A stretch of DNA of 31,752 nt from a virus (IMGVR_UViG_3300043410_001072:1-31752); one strand, 5' to 3'; numbered from the stretch's first letter, positions 3,996 to 18,979 are shown. Notes: generated by a model from the sequence alone, not told the origin. Numbers and translations: made by a program.

Positions 3996-4712
3996 ATGAA
4001 AAGAGTAATAGAAATCCGTGCTGCCGAGGGCGGCGAAGACAGCAAACTATTTGCAAAAGATTTGGCCCAAGCATACATTCGCTTGGCTTCTCGCCACGGC
4101 TGAACTAGCCGCCTTATAAATGAGTACCTTGGCGAGATACATTTAGAAGTTGAGGGTACTGATTTATCAGGCTTAGAAAATGAACCCGGAGGACATCGCA
4201 TACAACGGGTTCCGCCCACCGAACGGAAAGGGCGTGTCCATACTAGCACCGTGACCGTTGCAATCGTAGATGCCGAGGGTCCAGCTAAACAGCAGACTAT
4301 ACCCAACTCTGATTTAAGAATTGAATGGTACAGTGGGACTGGGGCTGGTGGACAACATCGCAACAAGCATCAGAACTCCTGCAGGATTACCCACATCCCA
4401 ACAGGAATTGTAGCCACGGCGCAATGCCGTAGTCGGCAAAATAGTCTTGCCGAAGCCCTACAAACAATACAAACACAAGTTGACAACATAGCACAGACAG
4501 CATATAATAAAACAATAGCAGCCGATAGAAAACAACAAGTTGGTACAGGTATGAGAGGCGACAAGGTTAGGACTTATCGCTTTCAAGATGATCGTGTGCA
4601 AGATCATGTCACAGGCCGGAGTGCCAAATGTTCGGCTATTTTACGAGGAAACTTTGATTTATTATGGCAAAAGAAATCCCTGAACACAAAGACAAACTTG
4701 GAAAGCTACTAA
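3996..4712 (+). CDS. RF1-type peptide chain release factor with in-frame UGA
   Basis: The same frame runs from ATG 3996 (site AAAGGT) to TAA 4712, 238 residues if the UGA at 4101-4103 (codon 36) is read. Before it: IEIRAAEGGEDS (domain 2 start). After it: GGHRIQRV, the stop-reading motif P73-P74-T75 (PxT, the UAA/UAG reader of RF1, not the SPF of RF2), SGTGAGGQ with the catalytic GGQ at 118-120, and RTYRFQDDRVQDH. Domain 1, which contacts L11 and RF3 in full-length RFs, is absent. The UGA sits in RHG-stop-TSRL, where bacterial RF1 has G-W or G-F, so reading as Trp restores the family sequence. No in-frame ATG follows the UGA; GTG 4251 would be too late for the PxT motif. Confidence 0.8.
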
Positions 4713-4918
4713 GCGTAGGCGATGCAGTCTGCTATCCTAGCCATAATAGTTTGGAATTAGGAACCGTTAAGAAACTCAATCCCAAGATGGTTAAAGTATG
4801 GGAAGCAGGCCGTCACGGCAAGTGGTATACAGGTAGTAACAAATACCCACAAGATCTAGTTAAGGTAGAGGGCGCCGAGGTAACAATGTATCTCTTGAAA
4901 ATGAATTCTTCTGCCTAG
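4664..4918 (+). CDS. Small SH3/KOW-like phage protein
   Basis: An 84-residue protein whose first 49 bases overlap the end of the release factor in another frame. It contains LLSVGDAVCYPSHNSLELGT then VKKLNPKMVKVW, a short beta-rich pattern like a KOW or SH3 barrel. The same VGD-x-V start appears in two other small genes here (23664 and 25495). Its 3' end converges with the leftward gene ending at 4860, so the two overlap by 59 bases. The role is unknown. Confidence 0.65.
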   Translation: MAKEIPEHKDKLGKLLSVGDAVCYPSHNSLELGTVKKLNPKMVKVWEAGRHGKWYTGSNKYPQDLVKVEGAEVTMYLLKMNSSA

Positions 4919-5105
4919 CCTGTTCCAATCTTGCATCTAATTGAGATTGTATAATCCAATCTTCGGCAGCAACTTTGGACATCCAACCCATCATATAACC
5001 AATTTGAGCAGCCAAAGTTTCTCCTTTAGTTTCTCTTGCAAGATAGCCCAATAATTCATTAATATCATCAAGGGCCTGCTGTTGCCTGGTCTTTTTAGTA
5101 TTCAT
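4860..5105 (-). CDS. Hypothetical helical protein, leaderless start
   Basis: An 81-residue protein read leftward from ATG at 5105. The middle (ALDDINELLGYLARET...AAQIGYMMGWMSKVAAEDWI) looks like two amphipathic helices. The start at 5105 is preferred over the upstream in-frame ATG at 5129 because TAAATA stands exactly five bases before it on the same strand, as at five other genes, and the upstream start would lie inside the opposite-strand promoter. No Shine-Dalgarno is present. The C-terminus overlaps the convergent gene. I recognise no family. Confidence 0.6.
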   Translation of the reverse strand: MNTKKTRQQQALDDINELLGYLARETKGETLAAQIGYMMGWMSKVAAEDWIIQSQLDARLEQARQKNSFSRDTLLPRRPLP

Positions 5106-5110
5106 AATAC

Positions 5111-5116
5111 TATTTA
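5111..5116 (-). promoter_or_regulatory. TAAATA-N5-ATG late-type element (leftward)
   Basis: On the minus strand TAAATA is followed by GTATT and ATG (5105). By T4 late-promoter geometry the A of ATG would be the first transcribed base. It is divergent from, and about 6 bases away from, the sigma70-like promoter at 5122. Confidence 0.5.
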
Positions 5117-5121
5117 CTGAC

Positions 5122-5150
5122 TTGACCATTTGGTAAAACTATGCTATAAT
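5122..5150 (+). promoter_or_regulatory. Sigma70-like promoter with TGGTAAAA spacer element
   Basis: TTGACC, a 17-base spacer, then TATAAT, with TG one base before the -10 (extended -10). The spacer carries TGGTAAAA at 5131-5138. It drives the peptidase at 5185. Confidence 0.8.
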
Positions 5151-5184
5151 ATAGTCATGTTAGCAATAAATTTCGGAGTTTGCA

Positions 5185-5589
5185 ATGGAATTTAAAGTCA
5201 GTTCTCGCAGTAAACGGGTTCAAAAATTCATTGAGCACATAATGCCCAGTATGATCAAACAACTCGGTTTGGAAAATAGCCGTAAATTTGTTCTAATAGA
5301 AACTAGCCACTGTGGCGATAATTATGGATATACAGTACCGCTAGAAGGACTCGACTCCTTTGTTATTGTGTTGAAACCGAGAACTAAGTGGCAAGAAATG
5401 GGGGTTACCCTTGCACATGAAATGGTTCATGTTCGCCAACTGGCCAAGGGAATTCTTAAAGCAGAAAATGGTAAGAAATACTGGAGAGGTAAACTTTACA
5501 GTAAAAAGACAAAGTATTTAGACATGCCGTGGGAATTAGATGCTCTTGCAAAGCAAGACATTATTTTCCGCAGGGCTTTAGAAGATTAA
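5185..5589 (+). CDS. SprT-like zinc metallopeptidase
   Basis: A 134-residue protein. H78-E79-M-V-H82 in LAHEMVHVRQ is the zincin HExxH site, and E117 in PWELDA is the probable third ligand. The N-terminus is a short helix-strand region. It lacks the separate C-terminal zinc ribbon of SprT. It is a small cytoplasmic protease-like protein with a clear promoter (5122) and GGAG ribosome site. A longer paralogue with the same HExxHxRQ and E-x-DA pattern is at 20230. The substrate is unknown. Confidence 0.8.
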   Translation: MEFKVSSRSKRVQKFIEHIMPSMIKQLGLENSRKFVLIETSHCGDNYGYTVPLEGLDSFVIVLKPRTKWQEMGVTLAHEMVHVRQLAKGILKAENGKKYWRGKLYSKKTKYLDMPWELDALAKQDIIFRRALED

Positions 5590-5598
5590 GGAATTTTT

Positions 5599-5820
5599 AT
5601 GATTACAGGAGTTCGTTGGTACGCTGGTAAGGACTGCATTGGTATTGTTCAAGTAGTCCAAGATCATCAAAAAGATCAGTATCGCCAAACAGGAGAAGCT
5701 GATTTTAAATACTACATTGGAGTAGGTTGGGGAGACGATGAAAAGACTGACATGTCTTACATCGCAGAACATGGCGTTCCGTTTGACCGTAACGCAGGTA
5801 ACACTTTGTTTGGAATTTAA
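5599..5820 (+). CDS. Hypothetical phage protein
   Basis: A 73-residue protein with AAGGA six bases before ATG 5599. It has mixed beta strands (GVRWYAGKDCIGIVQVVQDH; FKYYIGVGWG) and no signal peptide or membrane segment. It is placed between the peptidase and the phosphatase, with a one-base gap to the latter, so it belongs to the same transcript. I recognise no family. Confidence 0.7.
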   Translation: MITGVRWYAGKDCIGIVQVVQDHQKDQYRQTGEADFKYYIGVGWGDDEKTDMSYIAEHGVPFDRNAGNTLFGI

Positions 5821-5821
5821 A

Positions 5822-6409
5822 ATGCCTTGGATTCAAAATATTGCACTCGTCGATGTTGCTCGTGGTCATCACATCCGTGTTGGCGAAAATTCTATGTTGA
5901 TCCAAATCGTGGATCCATGCATGGAGTTTCCGAAGCCTTTGCACAATTTCAAGGAAGTTCACCAATTTGAATTCCTCGATATCGAAGAAGATGGGTTGAC
6001 CAACAATGGTGATGGCACATGGACGGACATGAGCGAGTTTGCTATCACTGATGAGCAAGCTGACCGGTTAGTTGAACTGCTCGAACACGCACTGGCTAAC
6101 AGGATGGACGTAGTTGTTCACTGTCATGCCGGTGTATGCCGTAGTGGTGCAGTCTGTGAAGTTGGTGTCATGATGGGCTTTGACGATGCAGAGGCCTTCC
6201 GTAGTCCTAACTTGCTGGTCAAGCATAAGATGATGCGTAAGCTAGGTTGGACCTACGACGAAAACGAGCCGCACACTATCAATGGTGTAACGCTTCCTTC
6301 GGGCATTGTAGTTCCTCCTAAAGCAATTGACTGGACAACCCAAAACGAAAAAGTTTTTACACTGGCTCGAGAAAGAAAAGAGCGCAGAGAAAGAGAAGGA
6401 GATATTTAA
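5822..6409 (+). CDS. Dual-specificity/tyrosine-type protein phosphatase
   Basis: A 195-residue protein. The active-site loop is H100-C101-HAGVC-R107-S (the C-x5-R signature), with catalytic Cys101 and phosphate-binding Arg107. The aspartate-containing stretch around residues 58-80 could supply the general acid. The C-terminal tail is basic and charged (LARERKERREREGD). The start at 5822 follows the stop of the previous gene and gives the natural N-terminus MPWIQNIALVDVARG. It could dephosphorylate host proteins or RNA ends. TAATG overlap with the kinase gene downstream indicates coupled translation. Confidence 0.82.
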   Translation: MPWIQNIALVDVARGHHIRVGENSMLIQIVDPCMEFPKPLHNFKEVHQFEFLDIEEDGLTNNGDGTWTDMSEFAITDEQADRLVELLEHALANRMDVVVHCHAGVCRSGAVCEVGVMMGFDDAEAFRSPNLLVKHKMMRKLGWTYDENEPHTINGVTLPSGIVVPPKAIDWTTQNEKVFTLARERKERREREGDI

Positions 6410-6873
6410 TGCCTAAGTGCTATCAATTAATCGGCGTGCCCGGTGCGGGCAAATCTACTTGGATCGATAACCAAGACTGGGCATTGCCTTGCGCTAAAGT
6501 TAGCACAGACAAGTGGGTAGAAATTTATGCGAGAGAAGTAGGTAAGACCTACAATCAGGTATTTGTAGATTTTATGCCTACTGCTGTAGAACTTATGGCT
6601 AAAGAAGTAGTTGTGGCTCGTAGTATGGGTCGAGATATTATCTGGGATCAAACCAGTGTGTCTGAAAAGAGTCGACGCAAGAAGTTTAATATGTTGCCAG
6701 ACTACTATCACATTGCTGTAGTGTTTAAGACACCTGAGCACAAGGAATTGATGCGCCGGCTGATGAATCGTCCAGGCAAAGACATTCCGGATCACGTTAT
6801 TGCTAGTATGATTGCTAGCTTTGAAATGCCCTCTGAAGAAGAAGGCTTCAAGGAGATTTGGTACGCCAGTTGA
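6409..6873 (+). CDS. P-loop kinase (polynucleotide-kinase-like)
   Basis: A 154-residue protein with Walker A GVPGAGKST (9-17), a conserved STDKW segment, an internal IIWDQTSVS stretch and the C-terminal lid region RRLMNRPGKDIPDH. This is the AAA_33 / polynucleotide kinase 5'-kinase fold. A neighbouring RNA ligase (8491) and phosphoesterase suggest a place in RNA repair, but a nucleoside kinase cannot be excluded. Its stop TGA is part of the -35 box of the next promoter. The frame continues open beyond the TGA into the next gene. Confidence 0.8.
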   Translation: MPKCYQLIGVPGAGKSTWIDNQDWALPCAKVSTDKWVEIYAREVGKTYNQVFVDFMPTAVELMAKEVVVARSMGRDIIWDQTSVSEKSRRKKFNMLPDYYHIAVVFKTPEHKELMRRLMNRPGKDIPDHVIASMIASFEMPSEEEGFKEIWYAS

Positions 6874-6898
6874 CAGAAATGTCTTCTGGTGTTACAAT
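6870..6898 (+). promoter_or_regulatory. Sigma70-like promoter for a leaderless gene
   Basis: TTGACA, 17 bases, then TACAAT with an extended TGT. The -35 overlaps the stop of the kinase gene. Predicted start is at about 6905, two bases before ATG 6907, and there is no Shine-Dalgarno. Confidence 0.65.
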
Positions 6899-6906
6899 TA
6901 AAAATT

Positions 6907-7455
6907 ATGAGAACATTTATAACATCAGATTTACATTTCGGACACACAAACATCATGAAGTTCTGTCCACAATCACGTGCGCGGTTTCGCAATGACGTGA
7001 ACTATATGAACGAGCAAATGGTTGTAGAATGGAATAGCATCGTTGAACCAGAAGACTTGGTTTACATTTTGGGCGATGTAGCATTCTTGCCTGCCCAGAA
7101 GGCTGCTGAGTACGTAAACCGTTGTAACGGCACAAAGATTCTAGTTGAGGGCAATCACGACCGTAAGGCTTTAAATGACCCTACGTTCCGTAAATGCTTT
7201 AAGGAAGTCCACAAGTATTTGGATATCAACTACAACGGACACAAGTGCGTTATGTTCCACTATCCAATCGCAGAGTGGGATCAAATGCACCGCGGTGCAT
7301 TACATTTCCACGGACACTTACATGGCGGTATAAGTGGCTTAGAAAAGTACCGCGCTCGCGACATGGGCATGGATGCAACAGGAATGATTGTTGTCGAAAT
7401 GGAACGTGCAATCAACGATGCAATGACCGGGCAGGTTAAAGGGCATCATGTGTAA
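6907..7455 (+). CDS. Calcineurin-like metallophosphoesterase
   Basis: A 182-residue protein with the full metallophosphoesterase motif set: SDLHFGH near the N-terminus, GDVAF, GNHD, an H in MFHYPI, and GHLHGG. Two metal ions would be bound. Phage enzymes of this type can act on RNA or nucleotide phosphate ends. ATG 6907 (MRTFITSD) is chosen over the TTG at 6889 because the first motif starts right after it and the promoter at 6870 predicts transcription start almost on it, so the mRNA would be leaderless. It follows the kinase gene in the same frame. Confidence 0.9.
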   Translation: MRTFITSDLHFGHTNIMKFCPQSRARFRNDVNYMNEQMVVEWNSIVEPEDLVYILGDVAFLPAQKAAEYVNRCNGTKILVEGNHDRKALNDPTFRKCFKEVHKYLDINYNGHKCVMFHYPIAEWDQMHRGALHFHGHLHGGISGLEKYRARDMGMDATGMIVVEMERAINDAMTGQVKGHHV

Positions 7456-7458
7456 ATA
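7453..7458 (+). promoter_or_regulatory. TAAATA-N5-ATG late-type element
   Basis: TAAATA followed by AATGC and ATG at 7464, with no Shine-Dalgarno. It overlaps the stop codon of the phosphoesterase gene. Confidence 0.45.
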
Positions 7459-7463
7459 AATGC

Positions 7464-7691
7464 ATGAAATGGATTGATAACTTATTTAAACGTCCTGAAT
7501 CAGGAAAAGTAAAACTAAAGTTTATAGCCATAGACGAGGAGGGACAACCCTACGAGGATGTGGCTACAGTCCCCTATCATGACGGCTACAGCGAAGAAAA
7601 AGTCCGCAATGGATTTGCCCACTTTATGGAAGTAGGTCCTAAGCATAAAGTAGTAGAAATTATTATTCTAGAACGCACAATAAACCCTTGA
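7464..7691 (+). CDS. Hypothetical phage protein, leaderless start
   Basis: A 75-residue protein (MKWIDNLFKRPESGKVKLKF...). A beta-rich middle (KFIAIDEEGQPYEDVATVPY) and a helix-strand end give a compact soluble domain. No signal peptide or known motif is seen. Its only visible start signal is the TAAATA-N5-ATG element, and its TGA stop forms part of the TTGACA of the promoter for the HD gene. The function is unknown. Confidence 0.7.
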   Translation: MKWIDNLFKRPESGKVKLKFIAIDEEGQPYEDVATVPYHDGYSEEKVRNGFAHFMEVGPKHKVVEIIILERTINP

Positions 7692-7716
7692 CAATCTGGT
7701 AAAACCGTGTTATAAT
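7688..7716 (+). promoter_or_regulatory. Sigma70-like promoter with TGGTAAAA spacer element
   Basis: TTGACA, 17-base spacer, TATAAT, with extended TGT. TGGTAAAA is at 7697-7704, in the same spacer position as in the promoter at 5122. It drives the HD hydrolase gene at 7742, whose ribosome site is AAGGAG. Confidence 0.88.
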
Positions 7717-7741
7717 AAACGCAGTCGATAAGGAGAATAAC

Positions 7742-8278
7742 ATGGAAGGATTTACAATGGAACTTAGTGGAATGGATATCGTGCGTAAGGCACAGGTGTT
7801 CGCTACGGCTGCTCATGCGGCTGTTGGACAGAAGCGCAAGTACACCGGTGAGCCCTACATCGTTCACCCTGCAGAAGTTGCCAGTATCGTTGCAAGTGTA
7901 GAAGGTGCTACTTTTGATATGATTGCGGCTGCATGGCTTCACGATGTAATCGAAGACACTGGTTGCACTTTTACTGACGTCCACATGGCGTTTGGTATCG
8001 ACATCGCAACCCTTGTTGATTGGCTTACTGACGTTAGTCGTCCGGAAGATGGCAACAGAGCTACCCGGAAGGCTATTGACAGAGCGCACACTGCTCAAGC
8101 ACCTGCTGAAGCGCAAACAATCAAGTTGGCAGACTTAATCAGCAACAGCCGAAGCATCATGCAACACGATCCTGCTTTCGCTAAGACTTACTTAGAGGAA
8201 AAGAGATTGTTGTTAGAAGTAATGACAAAGGGCGATGCCGGATTAATGGCAGAAGCCCGCAAGTATATTGGAGATTGA
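7742..8278 (+). CDS. RelA/SpoT-type HD hydrolase (putative (p)ppGpp hydrolase)
   Basis: A 178-residue single-domain protein. It carries the hydrolase signatures of the RelA/SpoT HD domain: RKYTGEPYIVHP with H42, the H67-D68-x2-E71-D72 motif (HDxxED) in WLHDVIEDT, and D131 in KLADLISN. The HDxxED pair separates active hydrolases from synthetase-only members, and no synthetase domain is attached, so it is like the small alarmone hydrolases (MESH1-type). It would lower (p)ppGpp during infection. The best start is 7742 behind AAGGAG. Other nucleotides are possible substrates. Confidence 0.83.
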   Translation: MEGFTMELSGMDIVRKAQVFATAAHAAVGQKRKYTGEPYIVHPAEVASIVASVEGATFDMIAAAWLHDVIEDTGCTFTDVHMAFGIDIATLVDWLTDVSRPEDGNRATRKAIDRAHTAQAPAEAQTIKLADLISNSRSIMQHDPAFAKTYLEEKRLLLEVMTKGDAGLMAEARKYIGD

Positions 8279-8279
8279 A

Positions 8280-8498
8280 ATGAAATGGTTTTGGACCGAT
8301 GCGAAAGGCGTTAAGGCAGATGTCGAACGGCATCGTGCCAAAGAAGCCGAACTAGATGCTAGGATAGCAGAGCTCGAAGCTATTGCCGATCCTGGCCCTA
8401 TGGATATTGCTTGCCTAAGGACTTATCGTAGGTTCCGTGCGAGCCTGCTACAAAGCAAGGCAGAAGTAGTTACAAAGATTGGAAAGAAAAATGTTTAA
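8280..8498 (+). CDS. Hypothetical coiled-coil-like protein
   Basis: A 72-residue protein starting at ATG 8280, two bases after the HD gene stop. It is a helical, charged protein (VERHRAKEAELDARIAELEAIAD) that may form a short coiled coil, then a second helix. Its 3' end overlaps the RNA ligase start by 8 bases, so translation is coupled. It could be a small phage regulator, and no family is recognised. Confidence 0.68.
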   Translation: MKWFWTDAKGVKADVERHRAKEAELDARIAELEAIADPGPMDIACLRTYRRFRASLLQSKAEVVTKIGKKNV

Positions 8499-9390
8499 GG
8501 ATGAATTGAAGAAGTATGTTGCCGAATCTGGACTCGTGAATATGCGTCCTGCTGGCGACAATATCTTTGTCCTAAAGTACAAGAAGAAGGTGTTCTACGA
8601 TAACCTATGGAACGACTACATTGCAGAATGTCGTGGCTCCATTGTAGACGCCGACTTCAACTTAGTTGCATATCCTTTTACTAAGATCTATAACTATGGT
8701 ATCGAAAAGGAAGCACCAGTTCTGCCCGACTTTACACCAGTCACTGCATTCCGTAAGGTTAACGGCTTTATGGTATCTGCTACTTGGCATAATGGTGATG
8801 TCTTGGTGTCAACAACTGGCTCTACAGATAGCGACTACGTTGCTATGGCCAAGGAAATGATGCTGACTCATATGTGCTGGGCTGACTGGCAAATGGCATT
8901 CGCTAATGCAGATATGCAGGGCCTGACTGTAATGTTCGAATGTGTACATCCAAACGATCCACACATCGTTCCAGAAAAGGCTGGCATGTATGTGCTAGGC
9001 TATCGTGAAAACTCGTGGCGTTCAAAGGTAGGACACAATCCTAACGTTCTGAACATCATGAAGGAAGGGTTCAACTGTTTCGTGCCAGAACACTGGCGTG
9101 TTACAATGAGTGAACTTAAGACTATGGCCAAGGAATGTAAGCACGAAGGATTTGTATTCTATACTGAAAGCGGTGTGAGTGCTAAGATCAAGTCGCCATA
9201 CTACTTGACTTCAAAGTGGGTTGCTCGCAATCCACGTACAGACAAGTTGGTAGATTTGAACAAGGACATAAAGCACAATCTTGATGAAGAATACTACCCA
9301 CTAGTTGACGCTATCCGTGCTAACATTGTAGAGTACACAGCAATGGACGAGCAAGCTCGCCTAGCTTGGGTAAGGGAGCAACTAGCATGA
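8491..9390 (+). CDS. T4 Rnl1-type RNA ligase
   Basis: A 299-residue protein with the ordered motifs of ATP-dependent RNA ligase 1: the ECRGSIVD segment (46-53), motif I K89-V-N-G92 with the AMP-accepting lysine, FECVHP (motif IIIa region), EGFVFY (motif IV) and KIKSPYY (motif V). T4 Rnl1 is 374 residues, so the C-terminal tRNA-specific domain is shorter here. Such enzymes reseal tRNAs cut by host anticodon nucleases. With ten phage tRNAs, the kinase at 6409 and phosphoesterase at 6907, an RNA-repair role is likely. The next gene overlaps by ATGA. Confidence 0.9.
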   Translation: MFKDELKKYVAESGLVNMRPAGDNIFVLKYKKKVFYDNLWNDYIAECRGSIVDADFNLVAYPFTKIYNYGIEKEAPVLPDFTPVTAFRKVNGFMVSATWHNGDVLVSTTGSTDSDYVAMAKEMMLTHMCWADWQMAFANADMQGLTVMFECVHPNDPHIVPEKAGMYVLGYRENSWRSKVGHNPNVLNIMKEGFNCFVPEHWRVTMSELKTMAKECKHEGFVFYTESGVSAKIKSPYYLTSKWVARNPRTDKLVDLNKDIKHNLDEEYYPLVDAIRANIVEYTAMDEQARLAWVREQLA

Positions 9391-9596
9391 AGGACGAAAG
9401 TCATTTACCGGTAGCACAACAAAGCCTAGTATTTCGGTTACGGAAACGTGCCGAAATACGTAGGCAGATTCCCGGCCGTAAAAGCGTTGAGGAAGGGACG
9501 CCGGATCGTATAGCAGACCTGCTAGAAGAAGCGGCTGATGAGATTGAACGGTTAAAAGACACACTAGAAGAGTTTGATTCTCGTCCAGACTGTTGA
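9387..9596 (+). CDS. Small helical phage protein
   Basis: A 69-residue protein from ATG 9387, sharing ATGA with the ligase stop. It is basic at the start (RLRKRAEIRRQ) and has an acidic amphipathic end (RIADLLEEAADEIERLKDTLEE) of a kind common in short phage proteins next to regulatory or Ea-type genes. It probably forms coiled coils. No function can be assigned. Confidence 0.7.
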   Translation: MKDESHLPVAQQSLVFRLRKRAEIRRQIPGRKSVEEGTPDRIADLLEEAADEIERLKDTLEEFDSRPDC

Positions 9597-9604
9597 CCTG
9601 TCAA

Positions 9605-9610
9605 TAAATA
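9605..9610 (+). promoter_or_regulatory. TAAATA-N5-ATG late-type element (AATAAATAT)
   Basis: AATAAATAT, CTTC and ATG 9616. The same AATAAATAT-N4-ATG arrangement stands before 13953 and 16580 on the other strand. No Shine-Dalgarno is present. Confidence 0.6.
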
Positions 9611-9615
9611 TCTTC

Positions 9616-10530
9616 ATGAAGGTAACAAATATTCATGATGCATGGGGATCGATCATTGAGTTTGATGATCCCCATGATTTTTTTAAGTTCCCTAAAGGCT
9701 ACTGGAGAGATTTAATTTACCAGAGGAAACTGTTAATCTTTAAAAAGATGACCTTTGACCCGGTTCACTACGGAAAATTTTCTCATCACTTTGGTAGACC
9801 ATGGGAGTACGATGAATATTTTAATAGTGTAGAGAAACCTGTTAGTTTTTCTGACGGAAACTATGGTTACAGCTTTTCTGAATTCTTTAACGGACTACAC
9901 AAATCTAACAATCCAATTGGTGTCGACAATGACATGAATTGGCATGCTGACCTTCCAAACTACAAAGAAAAATCTTTTCCTTTTAGGGCGTTATGGATAG
10001 TTAAGAAACCTCAAAATTCTTCTGGAAATACTTTCTGGCTTAATGTAGAAAACTGCTTTGATCAATTAAGTCCAAATTTAAAAAGCCTTGCCCAAAGAAT
10101 AACAGTACTACAACAGAACTGGCATAGATACGGTACTGACAAGGACATATTTAATTTAATAAAAATTCATCCTGTTACAGGCAAGGAATCATTAAGGCTA
10201 AACTTTTACGCCAAACCCGATGTAAAGAATGCATGGATAATTAAAGTGTTTGTTGACGGTAAACCTCTTCCGGGGTGTAGCCTTATTCAAGAATATATTA
10301 ATGATCTGTTAAAACATAAAGAACTGTATCATTCACATACTTGGGATTTGCATGACATAGCAATCTACGACAATCACAGTTTTATACACGGAAGATCACC
10401 TGTAGAATTTAAAGATGATCCCGAGAACAATGAGAGAAAATTCTACCGAACTAACATTGATCACATGTCCGATATAGAATTTCAAAATGTAGAATTTCCC
10501 CCAGGTGTTTCAACATCAACAATTAAATGA
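9616..10530 (+). CDS. TauD/TfdA-type 2OG-Fe(II) dioxygenase
   Basis: A 304-residue protein. The early segment (LIFKKMTFDPVHYGKFSHHFG) is the family's N-terminal helix-strand region. Metal ligands are H110-x-D112 in NWHADLP and distal H258 in YDNHSFIHGRSP, and ERKFYRTNI carries the arginine for 2-oxoglutarate. TauD members hydroxylate small molecules such as sulfonates, amino-acid derivatives and natural-product intermediates. The substrate is unknown. The start is fixed by TAAATA five bases upstream. A strong hairpin follows the start at 9641-9676. The last 49 bases overlap the convergent hydroxylase gene. Confidence 0.87.
   Translation: MKVTNIHDAWGSIIEFDDPHDFFKFPKGYWRDLIYQRKLLIFKKMTFDPVHYGKFSHHFGRPWEYDEYFNSVEKPVSFSDGNYGYSFSEFFNGLHKSNNPIGVDNDMNWHADLPNYKEKSFPFRALWIVKKPQNSSGNTFWLNVENCFDQLSPNLKSLAQRITVLQQNWHRYGTDKDIFNLIKIHPVTGKESLRLNFYAKPDVKNAWIIKVFVDGKPLPGCSLIQEYINDLLKHKELYHSHTWDLHDIAIYDNHSFIHGRSPVEFKDDPENNERKFYRTNIDHMSDIEFQNVEFPPGVSTSTIK
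9641..9676 (+). repeat. 14-bp hairpin inside the start of the TauD gene
   Basis: CATGGGGATC (9641-9650) pairs with GATCCCCATG (9667-9676), extended by ATCA/TGAT across one bulged base, around a 7-base loop. It begins 25 bases after the ATG and would form in the mRNA close to the initiating ribosome. It may also be a DNA operator. Confidence 0.7.
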
Positions 10531-11057
10531 ATCCTTGCCTCATTACTTTCGTTAATTAATCCGTGATTACTCAAGTTGTTTAATCTGCATATGGTCTTAA
10601 CAGGCATGTGTTCTCGATTATTGTTACTATCAAAGAACTGAACTAACGGGTTGGTTATTAACGGAATATGATATCTTGAATGTTTTTCAAAGTAAGCGCC
10701 AGGATCAATATGCATGTTTATCTTTCCCTTTGGTTCGAGATGTACGATCATTATTCTGCCTAATTTTATTCCCTGCACTGTCGACATAATCCATTCAGCG
10801 GCTTTGTAATGTTCAGGAAACCTTTCTATAACTCCTTTATTATCAACGCAGTCAACAATAGATGAAAATTCGTCAATAGTCGTTGGCATCTTTGTAGATT
10901 TCGAAACATCGTGCGACCTAAGATGTATAGACGTGCTTGTTTTAAATACGCCTTGCTTTCTTCCATCTTGCACACGCTCCCAATCAATTTTCGATAATTC
11001 TGTTAAGCAATTATCAAAAATCTTATCAGGGACTTCTTTTATTACCTGAACTAACAT
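10482..11057 (-). CDS. Aspartyl/asparaginyl beta-hydroxylase-like oxygenase
   Basis: A 191-residue protein. RIMIVHLEPKGKINMHID (about 101-118) with H116-x-D118, RYHIPL (128-133) and NLSNHGL with distal H165, then R175 in EARIHLIVDV, match the Asp/Asn/Arg hydroxylase family of 2OG-Fe(II) enzymes. The ATG at 11057 is used. A TTG at 11087 is possible but would lie deeper in the upstream gene, which already overlaps by 32 bases. It is the last gene of the leftward transcript, and its 3' end runs 49 bases into the convergent TauD gene. Confidence 0.82.
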   Translation of the reverse strand: MLVQVIKEVPDKIFDNCLTELSKIDWERVQDGRKQGVFKTSTSIHLRSHDVSKSTKMPTTIDEFSSIVDCVDNKGVIERFPEHYKAAEWIMSTVQGIKLGRIMIVHLEPKGKINMHIDPGAYFEKHSRYHIPLITNPLVQFFDSNNNREHMPVKTICRLNNLSNHGLINESNEARIHLIVDVETPGGNSTF

Positions 11058-11925
11058 ATTTTTCTCGATATAATTTTTTCCACTCAACTAAACTTTCTTT
11101 AGCTTGGGCAGTTGTATCATTTAAATTAGACGTAGTATCTGTTACACCGTTTTCTTTAAAAATTCCCAATCCTCGTTGGTCCTTAGGAAAAATGAAGGCG
11201 AGTTTGTTTATTTTATTTAAAAAATCTAGAGTTGCAGAACTATTAGATACAATCAAATATTCGACAATAAACTTTTCCTGCACTCCTAAACATTCTTTCC
11301 AACTATTAATATTTTCAAACTTTTTATTCGAAGTGTTTGCTATCGCCACAGTGTCATTTCGAACATGTGCGGTGCCTATTGAAAAGGTAATGTCGATTCT
11401 ATCTCCAATTAAATCAACTAGCGCAGGCGAAACACCTCTGTACGGAACTTCGATAAAATTTTTATTTTTATTAATTATAAGTTCTGCCGCAGACGAACTT
11501 GCACTGTCTTTACCCGAAGTTCCGATAAAGAAATTTCTTTTATTATTTTTTAAATCGTTACAGGTTAAATTTCGTGTCCTACTTCCAATTAGAATGTAGG
11601 GAGTTTCTCCTATCATGCTCACTACAGCAAATTCATTTTCTTTAAAACTTCCTTTGACTATGTTTACAAAGTAAGAACTATTTGTGAACATCAATGTTTT
11701 GTTTGGGTTAGAAGAAAGCAATCTTTGGGTGCCAACTATTGACCCTGCACCTGTTACATTTTCTACAATCACTTCTTCACCTGCGTTAACTTCGATATAC
11801 CTTGCAAAGTTTCTTGCCATTTGGTCAACCGCTCCACCAGATGCAAACGGAACAATCATTTTAATCTGAGCCGTGGCAATTGAACAATATAATAAAATTG
11901 TAAAAATTAATAAATGTTTTTTCAT
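11026..11925 (-). CDS. Exported Bug/TctC-family solute-binding protein
   Basis: A 299-residue protein with a signal peptide (MKKHLLIFTILLYCSIATAQ; cleavage after TA or AQ). It then has the Bug signature: IVPFASGGAVDQMARNFARYI, VIVENVTGAGSIVGTQ, and a middle PYRGVSPALVDLIGDRIDITF. Family members are periplasmic binding proteins for carboxylates in tripartite tricarboxylate uptake, very numerous in betaproteobacteria. The length is close to the usual 320. The membrane partners TctA/B are absent here, so it may serve host transporters, or bind a metabolite or signal. It is a host-derived gene within a phage operon. Confidence 0.88.
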   Translation of the reverse strand: MKKHLLIFTILLYCSIATAQIKMIVPFASGGAVDQMARNFARYIEVNAGEEVIVENVTGAGSIVGTQRLLSSNPNKTLMFTNSSYFVNIVKGSFKENEFAVVSMIGETPYILIGSRTRNLTCNDLKNNKRNFFIGTSGKDSASSSAAELIINKNKNFIEVPYRGVSPALVDLIGDRIDITFSIGTAHVRNDTVAIANTSNKKFENINSWKECLGVQEKFIVEYLIVSNSSATLDFLNKINKLAFIFPKDQRGLGIFKENGVTDTTSNLNDTTAQAKESLVEWKKLYREKYVSSGNKRSP

Positions 11926-11939
11926 TGCATAAGACCTAA

Positions 11940-13154
11940 TTAAAATTTTAAAACTTTATGAGCATACCCTTTTATCGGAATCGAATTTGACGGAATACCA
12001 TCGGATAAAAAATGAAAATATGGTTCGTGATTTCTTAAAGCTACCTTTATTTTTTCAACAAACGCATTTCTATTAGGATGCTTGCTTCTAAAGAACCACG
12101 AATCCCGACTAGTAAAGAGTGCGCTACCTTTAATTTTATCATCTCCGAATTGTTCATGAGATACGTTTGGGTATATAATTTTTTCTAGTTCAGCTTTTTT
12201 AAGCCATCTTCCGGCGGCGTATTTTAAAGATGAATGGTGTTGAACAAAAGGCCCTGTATTAGCTAAATTATTATACTCTGTCAATCGTTGATCAGAATCT
12301 AAAATTTTAACAATCTCTTTAGAGACCATATGGGATTGCTTAATAGATATCTCTGGAAATTCTCGACTTATAAAAAATGCTTCATCGGTAAAGTTTTTTA
12401 AAGGATCTCCGTATATGTATTTTAAAAAATATGAGCGAGCACAGAAATCCTGGGCATAACTACAATATCTAAAAGAATAAAATTCATCATGAATTTCAAT
12501 ATGAGGTTTTTCCATCCCCCAGACATAAGCAATTTTTTTACCAGACTTACTGAGATTTAAATGATGCTCTTGTCTTATTTTTAACAAATGTGAACGTGCC
12601 GCCATTGCCCATGTGCTCATTACTCCATTACTAAAATAAAGAAAATTATCAAGGTAGTCCGAATCACCGTAGCAATCCTGTATAAGATCTCCTATATCAA
12701 ATATTGTGAATAGAGTATTTTTTAAATTTAAACTATTAACGTATGGAATTGCAGAGTTAAAGACTTCTTGATTAAATTTAGATGATTTATCTAAAAATTT
12801 TAAATTAGAAAAAGTTAAGATTTCATCTACTTCAATATTATTTTTTAAGAACGATTCTAAAACAACATGGCTATCGATACCACCACTGTATAGTACTACA
12901 ATATAATCATATTTTTCTCTTAACTGCTCTGCCCGTTTCTTATAGAGGCTGATTATATCTTCTGTGGGTTCTATTTGCCAATTTAACAACTTAGTATGAT
13001 CGTCATTGAAATTGAAATAAAGATCACTCAATGGAAGTTTATTGTTAAATGTGTGCTGCCAGGCTTCGTACTTGCTGAAGCTCTTGAAGTCGCCTACCTG
13101 ATAAAAACCAAACTTTGTTATTTCAGGATCATCAATAAAGAACCTAGGTTCCAA
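11940..13154 (-). CDS. PP-loop ATPase (asparagine-synthase-like)
   Basis: A 404-residue protein with the PP-loop S90-G-G-I-D-S95 in VVLYSGGIDSHVVLESF, the AMP/pyrophosphate-binding loop of N-type ATP pyrophosphatases. The rest resembles the synthetase half of asparagine synthase loosely; no N-terminal glutaminase (Cys2) domain is present. Such enzymes adenylate a carboxylate or base and add nitrogen or sulfur. It begins with TTG 13154, right after the desaturase stop, behind AGGAAG; no ATG is available. A second PP-loop enzyme lies at 14561, and the substrate is unknown. Confidence 0.8.
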   Translation of the reverse strand: MEPRFFIDDPEITKFGFYQVGDFKSFSKYEAWQHTFNNKLPLSDLYFNFNDDHTKLLNWQIEPTEDIISLYKKRAEQLREKYDYIVVLYSGGIDSHVVLESFLKNNIEVDEILTFSNLKFLDKSSKFNQEVFNSAIPYVNSLNLKNTLFTIFDIGDLIQDCYGDSDYLDNFLYFSNGVMSTWAMAARSHLLKIRQEHHLNLSKSGKKIAYVWGMEKPHIEIHDEFYSFRYCSYAQDFCARSYFLKYIYGDPLKNFTDEAFFISREFPEISIKQSHMVSKEIVKILDSDQRLTEYNNLANTGPFVQHHSSLKYAAGRWLKKAELEKIIYPNVSHEQFGDDKIKGSALFTSRDSWFFRSKHPNRNAFVEKIKVALRNHEPYFHFLSDGIPSNSIPIKGYAHKVLKF

Positions 13155-13155
13155 T

Positions 13156-13953
13156 TCATTTACTTCCTAGGAATGGTAAAAATATTTTACAAGGGTCAAA
13201 TTCCCACCACTTTCCACTGATTGATGTACCGAAGTCATATTGCTTGGGGTCGTAATGATGATTGTTATGCCATCCTTGCCCCCATCCTAGCAATCCGAAT
13301 ATAACATTATTCTGAGATCGGTCACTGGTCTCAAAGTTCCTATAACCTATTAACATCTTTGTATGGCCGAATATGTTAACTAGATTGTCTTGTAGAAGAG
13401 TCAATCCGGTAGGTAAACAGAAAAGAGCAAGACTTAACTTCCAGTCAACTAACGCTGTTACTAAAGGAACCAACCATAATATTTTCATTTGATGCTCATG
13501 GAACCAAAAATGATTCTTTTTACGCAGAATAGGACCTGCGTATTTTAAACTAAACCCTGGGTTATTCTCTGTTATCTTAGTTGCCCAACCGAAGAATGCA
13601 TGGTATAGACCTTTCGTAGGACTATGCATATCTCGTTCAGTGTCAGAAACATTATGATGATATCCTCTATGTATTGCTGACCAAGTTATACTAGAACCCT
13701 GACCGCTCATTGTGCCGAAGAACAATAATATATTTTCTTTCCACACTGGAAGATTTGGATGCGTATTATGAGAAAAAACTCTATGATATCCTACCGCAAC
13801 TCCCAATCCTGCCGTCAATGCCCACCCAGCAAGGGTAAACCATAAGTAGTATGTAGGAATAATTCCAACAACATATAACACAACCGTAAGTATTCCCAAT
13901 GCAACAAACGGAACGAAGCTAAACCATGAATACTTAGAGATATCTTTAAACAT
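13156..13953 (-). CDS. Membrane acyl desaturase (delta-9 type)
   Basis: A 265-residue integral membrane protein with the three histidine boxes of acyl-CoA/acyl-lipid desaturases: H57-RVFS-H62, H95-RGY-H99-H100 and H229-NN-H232-H233, plus H197 in NIFGH. Four hydrophobic segments (about 12-30, 35-55, 157-170, 173-185) place it in the inner membrane. It would introduce a double bond in host fatty acids using a di-iron centre, probably changing membrane fluidity or supplying an acyl group to the neighbouring GNATs. It has its own TAAATA start signal, which makes it the first gene of a second leftward transcript. Confidence 0.9.
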   Translation of the reverse strand: MFKDISKYSWFSFVPFVALGILTVVLYVVGIIPTYYLWFTLAGWALTAGLGVAVGYHRVFSHNTHPNLPVWKENILLFFGTMSGQGSSITWSAIHRGYHHNVSDTERDMHSPTKGLYHAFFGWATKITENNPGFSLKYAGPILRKKNHFWFHEHQMKILWLVPLVTALVDWKLSLALFCLPTGLTLLQDNLVNIFGHTKMLIGYRNFETSDRSQNNVIFGLLGWGQGWHNNHHYDPKQYDFGTSISGKWWEFDPCKIFLPFLGSK

Positions 13954-13964: not shown

Positions 13965-14564
13965 TTAGAGCCTACCTGCATGATATAGATTCTCTCTATA
14001 TTTCTGTTTTAAAAAAGTACACCTAACCATTGTGTCAACTGGTAACAGAGTTCTATTGTAAAGTATTTGCCACGGAAGTGAGAACTGGGCCTGGTGGCGA
14101 GATTCAACATAATACTCATCAAAATAATCATATCTCTCGCTAGCCGCTTTGCTAAATGCAAGTCGTCTATAAGTCTTGATGTACTTTGTAGGAAACATGC
14201 TGTAAAATTTAAACCTACCATTCTTCTCGTTATGTTCTAAAACTTTATCAAGGACCTGTTTAATATGTTGTATATTATTACCTGTTGTCCTAATATGGTT
14301 CCAATACCAACTAGCATCTTCGTTTGATTCATAGAACCCAATTGCTGTAGTAATAGTGCCTTGTTCATCCATATACCCATATGCATGATACGATTTCAGA
14401 TCCGTTAGGTACGTTTCCTTAAATGCTTCATAATAAAATTCCTCAAACTTTAATTCAGCACCTACAAAATAATTCTGATCAGTAGGGACTCCCATAAATT
14501 TAGGCAGTTTAAACAAAGGTCGAACACTGCTGGCATGTTCTTTACTTAATTTAAGTACGGTCAT
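13965..14564 (-). CDS. GNAT-like N-acyltransferase
   Basis: A 199-residue protein. The order of elements fits the GNAT fold: an N-terminal helix region, strands AYGYMDEQGTITTAIGFYE (about 61-79) and a helix with IQHIKQVLDKVLEHNEKNG, then FKFYSMFPTKYIKTYRRLAF as the late strand and helix. The usual Q/R-x2-G-x-G/A loop is only loosely kept, so the call rests on layout. Its start shares a 4-base ATGA overlap with the PP-loop gene, so the two are translated as a pair. The substrate is unknown. Confidence 0.6.
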   Translation of the reverse strand: MTVLKLSKEHASSVRPLFKLPKFMGVPTDQNYFVGAELKFEEFYYEAFKETYLTDLKSYHAYGYMDEQGTITTAIGFYESNEDASWYWNHIRTTGNNIQHIKQVLDKVLEHNEKNGRFKFYSMFPTKYIKTYRRLAFSKAASERYDYFDEYYVESRHQAQFSLPWQILYNRTLLPVDTMVRCTFLKQKYRENLYHAGRL

Positions 14565-15478
14565 TTCTTACCTCTTAACATTTTAATAACAGTATTATAT
14601 TCAATACCATCTACACTAGGTTCTAATCTCATAATTTGCTCATTGGCTAATTTTCTATAGGCTTCAAAGTTAAATCCTAGCAACTTTTCATAACCGTGTG
14701 TTTTTTTCCTAACACGAATATCAGGTAGTAGTCTTTTTAGAATGTCGTTTTTACTACTAACCGAAGATAGCTTATAATTAAATTTTGTTGTTACTAACTT
14801 ACGAATACCTTCATCTTCTAAATAATATAACATTAGTTCGGGTGTATAACTAAAATATTCATTAACTAATGGTATGTTGAATTTCTGTGTAAATCGCATG
14901 GCACTGGCATCTTCATTTTCTCTAATGCAATAATACCAGGAACTAGGATCGGTATTAATATTTCTTTTTAGTAACAACTCTCCTCCCATCACCGAGGGCA
15001 ATCCTAACTTTAAAATAGAATTATAGACCACCAGATATGTAACCTGCGTACACTGTAACTGTTTTCCAAATTCACTAGCTTCTCCACTGTAATAAAAATC
15101 TTTAACGTCGAAGTCAACTATTTTTAATGGAACATCTAATTCGTTTGCTAATTCAACAGCTTCGTTAACATCGCTAGCATTATAATCATCTTTAAACTTA
15201 ATAGTGTAACAGGTTGGTTTTATTCCGATTTCTAAAAAATTTCGTAAAACAATTTCGCTGTCTGTTCCACCACTTAGCCATATAGCTGTGTCTTTACCGA
15301 ATTCCTGATATATTAAATCTGCTGTACGTTTTAATTCTTTTGAAAAATTATTTTTCTTATAATACCCTGCGTCAATTCGACCCACTGTTAAATTATATTT
15401 TTCTAAAGAATTTTCTCTCCACCCAAACTCGCGTCCGCCAATTAAATACCGTAAATGATTCTTATGGGTAAAATTCAT
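14561..15478 (-). CDS. PP-loop ATPase (second copy)
   Basis: A 305-residue protein with the PP-loop S69-G-G-T-D-S74 in AIWLSGGTDSEIVLRNFL, followed by the CYTIKFKDD strand and a DVNEAVELANELDVPLKIVDFD helix-strand, the alternating fold of N-type ATP pyrophosphatases. It is shorter than the 13154 protein and also lacks a glutaminase domain. The second half contains VMGGELLL. It overlaps both neighbours by ATGA, fixing it in a four-gene operon. Members of this class amidate, thiolate or ligate carboxylates. The exact reaction is unknown, and it is not clearly QueC. Confidence 0.8.
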   Translation of the reverse strand: MNFTHKNHLRYLIGGREFGWRENSLEKYNLTVGRIDAGYYKKNNFSKELKRTADLIYQEFGKDTAIWLSGGTDSEIVLRNFLEIGIKPTCYTIKFKDDYNASDVNEAVELANELDVPLKIVDFDVKDFYYSGEASEFGKQLQCTQVTYLVVYNSILKLGLPSVMGGELLLKRNINTDPSSWYYCIRENEDASAMRFTQKFNIPLVNEYFSYTPELMLYYLEDEGIRKLVTTKFNYKLSSVSSKNDILKRLLPDIRVRKKTHGYEKLLGFNFEAYRKLANEQIMRLEPSVDGIEYNTVIKMLRGKK

Positions 15479-16068
15479 GTTGTACCTATTCTTAAAAATT
15501 TTTTAAAATAATCAAACTTTGCACCAAGACCGTATGTAATAAGATACCTAGGATTATCGCTCATTGCATTAACAGAATGCCATTCGTGCGTATTCACCAG
15601 ATATCCATAACCGTCTTTTAAAATTGTTTTCGAATGAGTTTTATAAAATTCTTCTCTGGGAATATCAGACGCACCCATGCAGGTGACAGCTTCAGAAGAA
15701 TTCTTAAGCCCTATGTTGATACAGGTTAATCTACCAGCTTCATCTCGATGTATAGGAATATCTCCTTTTGTTCTAATTAAATGAACTCTGTTTATTTCTG
15801 GTTCATATTTTTCAGGGAAGATAGGTCTTAACACATCTGCAACCTTTTTAGACATTTCAGATAGGATAGGATGTTTTCCCGTATGTCTAGAAAAACTAAT
15901 GCTCCCTGTTATCCCACCTTCATTTTTATATTCGATCCAACAGGGATAATCTGGTACTACGGTATTTCCTCCGTACTTATGTATTATAGTTTCTAGTCCT
16001 TCGGCTGCTTCAATGTAAGAAGTAAACTCCTCAGGATCTATTAACCTTCCTAGCTCTAGAATATTCAT
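15475..16068 (-). CDS. 2OG-Fe(II) oxygenase-like protein
   Basis: A 197-residue protein. VHLIRTKGDIPIHRDEAGRL supplies H107-x-D109, and DGYGYLVNTHEWHSVNAM the distal H164 (H161 is possible), with R174 in NPRYLITYGLG. This is the facial triad of a small double-stranded beta-helix oxygenase. It is likely to hydroxylate a small molecule or peptide made by the operon. The gene sits between a GNAT and a PP-loop gene and overlaps each by ATGA, so the group is tightly coupled. Confidence 0.8.
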   Translation of the reverse strand: MNILELGRLIDPEEFTSYIEAAEGLETIIHKYGGNTVVPDYPCWIEYKNEGGITGSISFSRHTGKHPILSEMSKKVADVLRPIFPEKYEPEINRVHLIRTKGDIPIHRDEAGRLTCINIGLKNSSEAVTCMGASDIPREEFYKTHSKTILKDGYGYLVNTHEWHSVNAMSDNPRYLITYGLGAKFDYFKKFLRIGTT

Positions 16069-16580
16069 CTTTTATACTCTGCCACATATTGTTCTGTGTA
16101 ATAAACTATCTTTTTTCCAATAGGAACAAATTTCTTATAAACATCCGGCCAAGGTGTTGATGCTTTACCCTGAGACAACCGTGTTAATGCTTGATAGATG
16201 GTAAAATTATAATCATTACAGGTGATCCATAACCTGTTGTAATTTTCGGTTTCGCTAAACATAACAGGTAGTAAGTACTTAGCCATGTTAAACCTGCCCC
16301 GTAATTCTTTAGGTACAAACGCCCTTGTTAAGATCAATGCAATACCTTCATAGTCGTTCCAGCCAGCACTTCCGAAATATTTTCCATCTTCTTCCATTAC
16401 CAAATAGTTTCCAATCGAATATCTCCCTTCATTGAGGATTCGAAAAAAATTTCCCGGAACAGATTCAAAATCAGGGTGGTAATTTGCTAAAATTGTTTCA
16501 TCAGAAATTTTAGAAAATTCCTTTTTAAGAAGGTTGACTGCAACAGAATTTGACAGATCTTTAACAGAGTGTATAATCAT
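16065..16580 (-). CDS. GNAT-like acetyltransferase, first gene of leftward operon
   Basis: A 171-residue protein. NYLVMEEDGKYFGSAGWNDYEGIALILTRAFVPKELRGRFNMAKYLLPVMF (about 58-108) is the typical GNAT strand-turn-strand-helix order, with RGRFN in the acetyl-CoA pyrophosphate loop. WITCNDYNFTIYQALTRL is the late strand and helix. The start ATG 16580 carries TAAATA five bases upstream and no Shine-Dalgarno. The gene opens the operon GNAT - oxygenase - PP-loop - GNAT. Confidence 0.72.
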   Translation of the reverse strand: MIIHSVKDLSNSVAVNLLKKEFSKISDETILANYHPDFESVPGNFFRILNEGRYSIGNYLVMEEDGKYFGSAGWNDYEGIALILTRAFVPKELRGRFNMAKYLLPVMFSETENYNRLWITCNDYNFTIYQALTRLSQGKASTPWPDVYKKFVPIGKKIVYYTEQYVAEYKR

Positions 16581-18430: not shown

Positions 18431-18979
18431 ATGAATTTAGAACTTTTAATTGTTGATAATTTTTATGAAGATCCGGATGCCGTAAGAGAATATGCATTAA
18501 GACAAGAGTTTGATGTTACGGGAAATTTTCCCGGTGTAAGGACTAAACCGTATCTGCCAGACGATGTTAAGGCAGCTATAGAATATTGGATGAGTTTCGC
18601 TGGACCAGTTACTAATTGGTTTGAAGATTCTGGGTATACTGGATCATTTCAACTGGCAACGGCAGAAGATAGAACATGGATTCATCCTGACCATTTTAAT
18701 AAGTGGGCCGCCGTTTGTTACTTAACTCCTGATGCACCGCATACAGCTGGCACTGGATTATTCAGACACAGGTCTACAGGCGAACATAGAAGAGTAGAAG
18801 GCCTACACGAAGGATATGATCTTACCAAATGGGACTTGTTTGACGTTGTAGGAAACAAGTATAATAGACTTGTAATATATAGAGGTGATCTTTTCCATGC
18901 AAGTTTAAATTATTTTGGCGATAGTAAAGAAAACGGAAGGTTGTTCCAAACATTCTTCTTTGATACAGAGCGTGTATGA
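18431..18979 (+). CDS. 2OG-Fe(II) oxygenase (DUF6445-like)
   Basis: A 182-residue protein. The start VDNFYEDPDAVREYALRQEF and GNFPGVRTK are typical of the DUF6445 type. H85-x-D87 in WIHPDHFNKWAAVCYL, distal H156 in YRGDLFHAS and R170 in NGRLFQTFFF form the 2OG-Fe(II) site. In bacteria such genes often sit among tryptophan halogenase or natural-product genes. Here it stands between glycosyltransferase genes and overlaps the next by ATGA. The substrate is unknown. Confidence 0.8.
   Translation: MNLELLIVDNFYEDPDAVREYALRQEFDVTGNFPGVRTKPYLPDDVKAAIEYWMSFAGPVTNWFEDSGYTGSFQLATAEDRTWIHPDHFNKWAAVCYLTPDAPHTAGTGLFRHRSTGEHRRVEGLHEGYDLTKWDLFDVVGNKYNRLVIYRGDLFHASLNYFGDSKENGRLFQTFFFDTERV

Follow-up and report, generated by a model that had tools for sequence, protein, structure and literature searches.

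Do the tandem genes on one strand of a viral DNA record form a biosynthetic unit, and if so, what might they make? The window, by which we mean the whole stretch analysed, is a 31,752-base IMG/VR virus record (IMGVR_UViG_3300043410_001072:1-31752). A first-pass annotation of this sequence had proposed a four-gene operon encoding a GNAT protein, a 2OG-Fe(II) oxygenase, a PP-loop ATPase and a second GNAT protein, and had taken it for a possible new phage-encoded biosynthesis reminiscent of the beta-lactams. Based on the analyses described below, we conclude that there is a genuine and recurrent cassette in phages, that it probably has a biosynthetic role, and that its core differs from the four genes originally proposed.

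Gene layout in the window

Four minus-strand ORFs, A, B, C and D, occupy positions 16580-13965, and adjacent ORFs overlap by exactly 4 bases (ATGA) at A/B, B/C and C/D, just as the first-pass annotation had described. It had also placed a desaturase, a second PP-loop enzyme, a Bug protein and another hydroxylase next on the same strand, and these identities were borne out by Pfam matches for E, G and H and by the PP-loop motif of F (Table 1).

Table 1. Genes A to H of the window, with coordinates and the basis of each assignment.
Gene	Product	Position	Strand	Basis
A	GNAT-like protein 1 (171 aa); operon's first gene; canonical acetyl-CoA loop degenerate	16065..16580	-	ORF, Pfam matches of relatives, family alignment
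B	Putative tailoring 2OG-Fe(II) oxygenase, 197 aa; not in every cassette	15475..16068	-	Conserved motif, 4-bp overlap with A
C	Glutaminase-free PP-loop synthetase of the AsnB type (305 aa)	14561..15478	-	SGGTDSE motif, model, matches of relatives
D	GNAT-fold protein 2 (199 aa)	13965..14564	-	Model; 3' of C in 55/55 untruncated cassettes
E	Fatty acid desaturase of the membrane type (265 aa) with Delta9/DesC-like His boxes	13156..13953	-	PF00487 3.6e-12
F	Second PP-loop protein (404 aa, SGGIDSH); start codon TTG uncertain	11940..13154	-	Associated; no fixed cassette member
G	Bug/TctC-type periplasmic solute-binding protein	11026..11925	-	PF03401 8.7e-9; associated
H	Aspartyl/asparaginyl beta-hydroxylase (Asp/Arg hydroxylase) family; start codon TTG uncertain	10482..11087	-	PF05118 2.6e-10; associated

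On the opposite strand, from 16649 on, there are glycosyltransferases, a further 2OG-like gene, and dCMP deaminase-like and UDP-glucose dehydrogenase-like genes. The window also contains ten tRNA genes and an RNA ligase/tail-fibre-attachment gene, a content compatible with a large tailed phage; a T4-type gp23 capsid gene was not found within its 31.7 kb. The window genes are under protein-level constraint, as, relative to locus L068, differences are 1.3-2.5 times as frequent at the third codon position as at the first. Judged by eye from motifs, the window seems to have, in addition to B and H, no fewer than four further 2OG/hydroxylase-like proteins (1851-2486, 2489-3505, 9574-10530 and 18431-18979), the one at 9574-10530 being TauD-like in appearance.

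Conservation and distribution of the cassette

C and D are neighbors in almost all viral relatives. We scanned viral contigs with C and D and obtained more than 120 loci; removal of near copies at 95% identity of C left 64 non-redundant cassettes, 55 of them untruncated. D was the next gene after C in 57 of the 59 non-redundant loci that have a next gene, and a single gene was inserted between C and D in the remaining two. This co-occurrence is far above chance. Among the untruncated cassettes, D followed C in all 55, E flanked C/D in 51, A was nearby in 35, and B was found in 11.

The cassettes had two main architectures. In the first, A-(ACP)-C-D-E, where ACP is an acyl carrier protein described below, E comes after D (38/55), and A was recognisable in 35 of these. 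In the second, E'-C-D (13/55), E comes before C, and both A and ACP are absent. On a tree of C, the architecture and ACP traits were clustered yet had been gained or lost several times, with at least seven changes of the ACP label. We conclude that the conserved core is A-(ACP)-C-D-E, that B is optional and movable, and that F, G and H lie outside the fixed set. The idea of a biosynthetic-type unit thus held up insofar as the genes are co-inherited in phages, and it was the choice of A to D as the natural unit that did not. The first-pass annotation had also suggested looking for the same gene order in other phages and had raised the possibility that homologues never co-occur; the order was found in the counts for C-D, and the counts for D and E contradict that possibility.

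Other genes are found around the core with lower frequency. The F family was present in 20/64 loci and a family comparable to H in 22/64, and the F-G adjacency was also seen in L015. Bug/TctC proteins occur in phages of this group (family in 14/64 loci; window:11026-11925 and L012:4873-5808), hinting at Burkholderiales-like hosts or genes. Radical SAM enzymes of three families, one with SPASM, were near the cassette in 14-15 of the 64 loci each (L119:10453-11937, L086:10969-12222, L005:389-1285 and relatives). Distant paralogues of C directly adjoin F-type PP-loop genes (L014:1739-3795, L010:4538-6633, L086:4456-6582), and these C/F pairs constitute a second PP-loop module.

For several large records, the cassette belongs to large uncultured phages. 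A T4-type gp23 capsid gene (PF07068, E ~1e-98) was present in five cassette-bearing records of 133-524 kb (G004, G006, G007, G009 and G011). Searches of 50,697 records of isolate phages with B, C and D, and of 72,556 plasmids with C, returned no match; desaturase matches in these collections were remote (26%). In 84,980 cellular species genomes, scanned via one short motif with which distant relatives may be missed, there were only four distant relatives of C, none with the A-C-D-E order. Two were in a Nitrososphaerales bin, on contigs resembling phage DNA, and the other two were in Bdellovibrionota and lacked A/D/E partners. The Nitrososphaerales-binned L130 and L132 (JANWKP010000208.1 and JANWKP010000389.1) are densely packed with genes closely resembling those of the phages (desaturases, fatty acid hydroxylase, GNAT, PP-loop, Bug and family III CoA-transferase), and are probably mis-binned phage DNA. 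A locus from a Bdellovibrionota bin (L133:9023-11500) encodes an 825-aa protein with a C-like PP-loop domain and adjoins a second C-like gene.

Protein families, folds and the carrier protein

As single sequences, A, B and D had no match in Pfam or NCBIfam and nothing above the cut-off in PHROGs, and C and F gave nothing above the cut-off in any of the three libraries. Because of these results, we assembled families from the viral relatives.

C is predicted with high confidence to have an asparagine-synthetase/beta-lactam-synthetase fold without the glutaminase domain. S69-G70-G71 of its PP-loop motif is invariant across the family, and among the 51 members QueC was matched by 40, Asn_synthase by 25, MnmA by 24, and NAD_synthase by 16. 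When the AlphaFold model of C (pLDDT 94.5) was compared to the PDB with VIA-align, the top match was asparagine synthetase (Z 15.0, 254 residues, rmsd 3.8 A), followed by beta-lactam synthetase (14.9) and carbapenam synthetase (14.1), with LarE (10.7), QueC (9.2), TilS/MesJ (9.1) and the nitrile synthetase ArtA (8.7) more distant. The likeness to beta-lactam-type synthetases, and the lack of a glutaminase domain, are in line with the first-pass annotation. C also aligned with E. coli AsnB by hhalign (E 1.1e-4) over residues 46-167, the ATP-binding half. The model could be aligned to AsnB only from residue 117-119 on, and the N-terminal class II glutaminase(-like) domain is absent; with a length of 305 aa, C therefore has no room for one.

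K243 and K259 are invariant in the C family. We could not assign a counterpart in C of the catalytic K449 of E. coli AsnB from sequence, because the C-terminal pairwise alignment was no better than that of shuffled sequences. A PDB sequence search with the C profile returned the PP-loops of NAD synthetase, MnmA and QueC, and matches to gp120 were dismissed as chance. In a viral structure library, C was matched best (E 2.8e-24) by an unnamed protein from an uncultured phage of the Caudovirales.

The two GNAT-like proteins have altered acetyl-CoA loops. The A family matched PF00583 (3.9e-5), and PF13508 was matched in 8 of 33 members. Compared with acetyltransferases, the AlphaFold model of D (pLDDT 80.5) has a GNAT fold (VIA Z 14.7, rmsd 2.8 over 153 residues). 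Profiles of A, D and F retrieved nothing meaningful from the PDB by sequence. The loop R/Q-x-x-G-x-G/A is lost in A (R94-GRFNM), where the glycines are missing family-wide, and is half retained in D (R92-xx-G-x-N). Such weakened or altered loops would be expected if the acyl donor were something other than ordinary acetyl-CoA. In L119, A is fused in frame to the ACP.

E has the conserved His boxes HRVFSH, HRGYHH and HNNHH, which are of the Delta9 type. B is a putative 2OG-Fe(II) oxygenase, judging from conserved residues: H107-x-D109, H164 and R174 (an HxD...H triad with the Arg ten residues past the distal His) were invariant in 8/8 aligned sequences, and two distant relatives of B matched PF05118 (best 9.4e-6). 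The HMM search that the first-pass annotation had recommended thus gave matches for E, G and H directly and for A, C and B through relatives; as single sequences, A, B, C, D and F had no match that passed the cut-off. The names GNAT, 2OG and PP-loop, which did not come out of single-sequence library matches, were supported by the families of A and C, the model of D, and the motif of B.

Many relatives encode an acyl carrier protein between A and C. A gap of ~215 bases at this position contains an ORF of 71-82 aa that has the phosphopantetheine motif GLDSLDxVELQ and matches PF00550 above the curated cut-off, and there are stop-start overlaps at A/ACP and ACP/C. By profile search, the ACP gene was just upstream of C in 27/64 non-redundant loci; it was missing from 33/55 untruncated cassettes, and was not found by profile in the window. 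In five large records (68-264 kb), the sole PF00550 (PP-binding) match falls within the cassette, and in 4/5 it passes the cut-off (that in G013 does not). In the converse test, viral contigs scanned with the ACP alone gave 32 loci, most of which have C-D(-E) adjoining; those without an adjoining cassette were L161, L163-L165, L171 and L174-L176.

We searched the large records and the window for a dedicated PPTase and found none; host AcpS would therefore have to act. The architecture with E before C does without both A and ACP, so the ACP is dispensable; and because the window and many other cassettes have no ACP gene, the pathway may rely on a host ACP or be carrier-free.

L161, L163, L164, L165 and L171 (~4000-8600) contain a second type of phage ACP operon, with no C, D or A nearby. 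After the ACP gene in this operon come one for a conserved, unnamed protein of 272-468 aa (MQS..DEFYKxLIKPIRD...) and a number of 2OG-like genes, and in L161 and L171 there is a radical SAM-type gene upstream.

A candidate pathway, its rivals and known systems

We believe, with about even confidence, that the cassette specifies a carrier-protein-linked pathway, carried by phages, in which an acyl or amino-acyl group is activated, desaturated and coupled as an amide, the product being a small acylated amide. C would adenylate a carboxylate with ATP, like asparagine and beta-lactam synthetases, and would hand the activated carboxylate either to an amine or to the carrier protein, at its phosphopantetheine thiol; host AcpS would load the cofactor on the carrier. 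E would then desaturate the acyl chain by one double bond, the GNAT-like proteins A and D would transfer the acyl group between carrier and amine (N-acylation), and B or a different 2OG enzyme, if there is one, may hydroxylate the product. A phage that has no ACP gene, as in the fragment that is the window, would use a host ACP or an unsequenced one. We infer that the steps could follow this order, that the product could be an unsaturated N-acyl or amide lipid, and that it might serve as a signal, an antibiotic against competitors, or a membrane modifier.

Several points count against this pathway, among them the lack of an ACP gene in the window and in 33/55 cassettes, the architecture with E before C and no A or ACP, the absence of a PPTase match in the large records, and the unplaced catalytic Lys of AsnB. 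Membrane desaturases of E's class usually act on acyl-CoA or acyl-lipid. In addition, acyl-activating AMP-binding enzymes (PF00501) are found in only two of the large records and far from the cassette (~190 kb away in G005 and ~55 kb in G007). These enzymes (L145 in G005 and L144 in G007) are short, ~360 aa, and convergent with an SGNH-hydrolase-like gene, and in L145 a radical SAM-like gene adjoins the AMP-binding gene. In a bolder version, which we regard as unlikely, C would be an AsnB-type PP-loop enzyme that acts as a carrier-protein ligase of a new kind, transferring an acyl or amino-acyl adenylate to the phosphopantetheine of the phage ACP, the pathway would be a virus-evolved route to a secondary metabolite with no cellular counterpart, and the unsaturated N-acyl amide would be a signal or weapon during infection.

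The enzymes might instead remodel membrane lipids, which we think unlikely. E would desaturate host acyl chains, the GNATs would N-acylate an amino acid, the oxygenases would hydroxylate, and C would amidate the head group, giving an aminolipid (ornithine-lipid-like) or altered host membranes. The FA_desaturase match with its typical His boxes and the GNAT fold are consistent with such a role, as are the several desaturase paralogues and PF05118-type hydroxylases held by the same phages and the lipid desaturases of cyanophages cited in PMC11480375, but simple acyl-lipid desaturation needs neither a dedicated ACP nor an AsnB-type ligase, and no PlsC-type lipid acyltransferase came to notice, short of a directed search. 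The closeness of the fold of C to asparagine, beta-lactam and carbapenam synthetases, and the 2OG-like gene next to it in the window, point to a beta-lactam- or clavam-type amide or lactam made on free substrates, in which C would close a ring or amidate a carboxylate and the 2OG oxygenase would tailor the product. This is distinctly improbable, given that B is in so few cassettes (11/55), that the constant partners are GNATs, the desaturase and often the ACP, that no ring-precursor enzymes were noticed, and that C is without the N-terminal domain that beta-lactam synthetases keep. The beta-lactam-like pathway of the first-pass annotation is accordingly not supported, as we found nothing specific to a beta-lactam.

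Hypermodification of tRNA or phage DNA, by a QueC/MnmA/TilS-like PP-loop enzyme together with GNATs and oxygenases, would fit the commonest weak matches of the C family, which are to tRNA-modification PP-loops (QueC 40/51, MnmA 24/51), and such pathways are phage-encoded elsewhere. Nonetheless, we find it very doubtful: the fold of C is nearer to AsnB/beta-lactam synthetase (Z 14-15) than to QueC or TilS, and there is no place in it for a membrane desaturase or an ACP. It is highly unlikely that the genes act with the neighboring glycosyltransferases to modify a sugar chain or the phage surface. The opposite strand of the window does have glycosyltransferases and a UDP-glucose dehydrogenase, and bacterial amidino-sugar pathways contain PP-loop and GNAT enzymes, but among the 64 loci glycosyltransferases do not form a conserved part of the surroundings, and an ACP and a desaturase are ill-fitting. 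Finally, unrelated auxiliary genes might lie together by chance in a plastic region, as is suggested by F, G, H and the many oxygenase, radical SAM and PP-loop genes that vary freely around the cassette. As a general explanation this is scarcely credible, and for A, C, D and E it is refuted by the constancy of C-D (55/55) and E (51/55) in divergent cassettes, the overlaps indicative of translational coupling, and the A-ACP fusion.

We found no paper in the open-access literature that combines phage, PP-loop and desaturase. Our results suggest that the cassette is previously undescribed and common to dozens of large uncultured phages, and that it carries the enzymes, and in many of these phages the ACP, for assembling a small lipid-like or amide-like molecule, so that these viruses may produce their own chemical while they infect. 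Phage auxiliary genes mostly supplement a host pathway; here there is a conserved set of enzymes, four of its families unnamed in public libraries, often with its own carrier. If a defined small molecule is made, then there are viruses with their own dedicated biosynthetic line, and an AsnB-type synthetase that lacks the glutaminase domain and works beside an ACP would be a new enzyme arrangement.

Asparagine-synthetase-like enzymes form lactams, amides and nitriles in natural products (PMC13060819). C has the predicted synthetase-domain fold and PP-loop of AsnB, beta-lactam and carbapenam synthetases and ArtA, and differs from them in having no N-terminal glutaminase-type domain, only 10-15% identity, and other genomic partners. 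The jamABC-type alkyne/polyyne starter cassette of bacteria consists of a fatty acyl-AMP ligase, a membrane desaturase and an ACP (PMC8406139). As in that cassette, a putative ATP-dependent activating enzyme and a membrane-bound fatty acid desaturase are encoded together in the phages, in some of them with a stand-alone ACP. In contrast, the phage activating enzyme is an AsnB-type PP-loop protein rather than an ANL-type ligase (PF00501), of which there is none in the phage cassette; two GNAT-like proteins are added; and the ACP is found in 27/64 loci and is absent from the window and 33/55.

A reference in PMC4897644 describes FeeM, a GNAT-like N-acyl amino acid synthase studied with its own ACP. 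The linkage of a GNAT-like acyltransferase to an ACP is shared with the phage cassette, in which our alignment indicates a weakened canonical CoA loop in A, whereas no sequence match to FeeM was found and the phage cassette has a ligase, a desaturase and two GNAT proteins. ACP genes, with an unclear role, have been described in Erythrobacter phage vB_EliS-R6L and Vibrio phage R16F (PMC5463345, PMC10152775). These phage ACPs and the cyanophage desaturases are the same types of genes as those described here, reported there as single auxiliary genes and not as a conserved multi-enzyme cassette.
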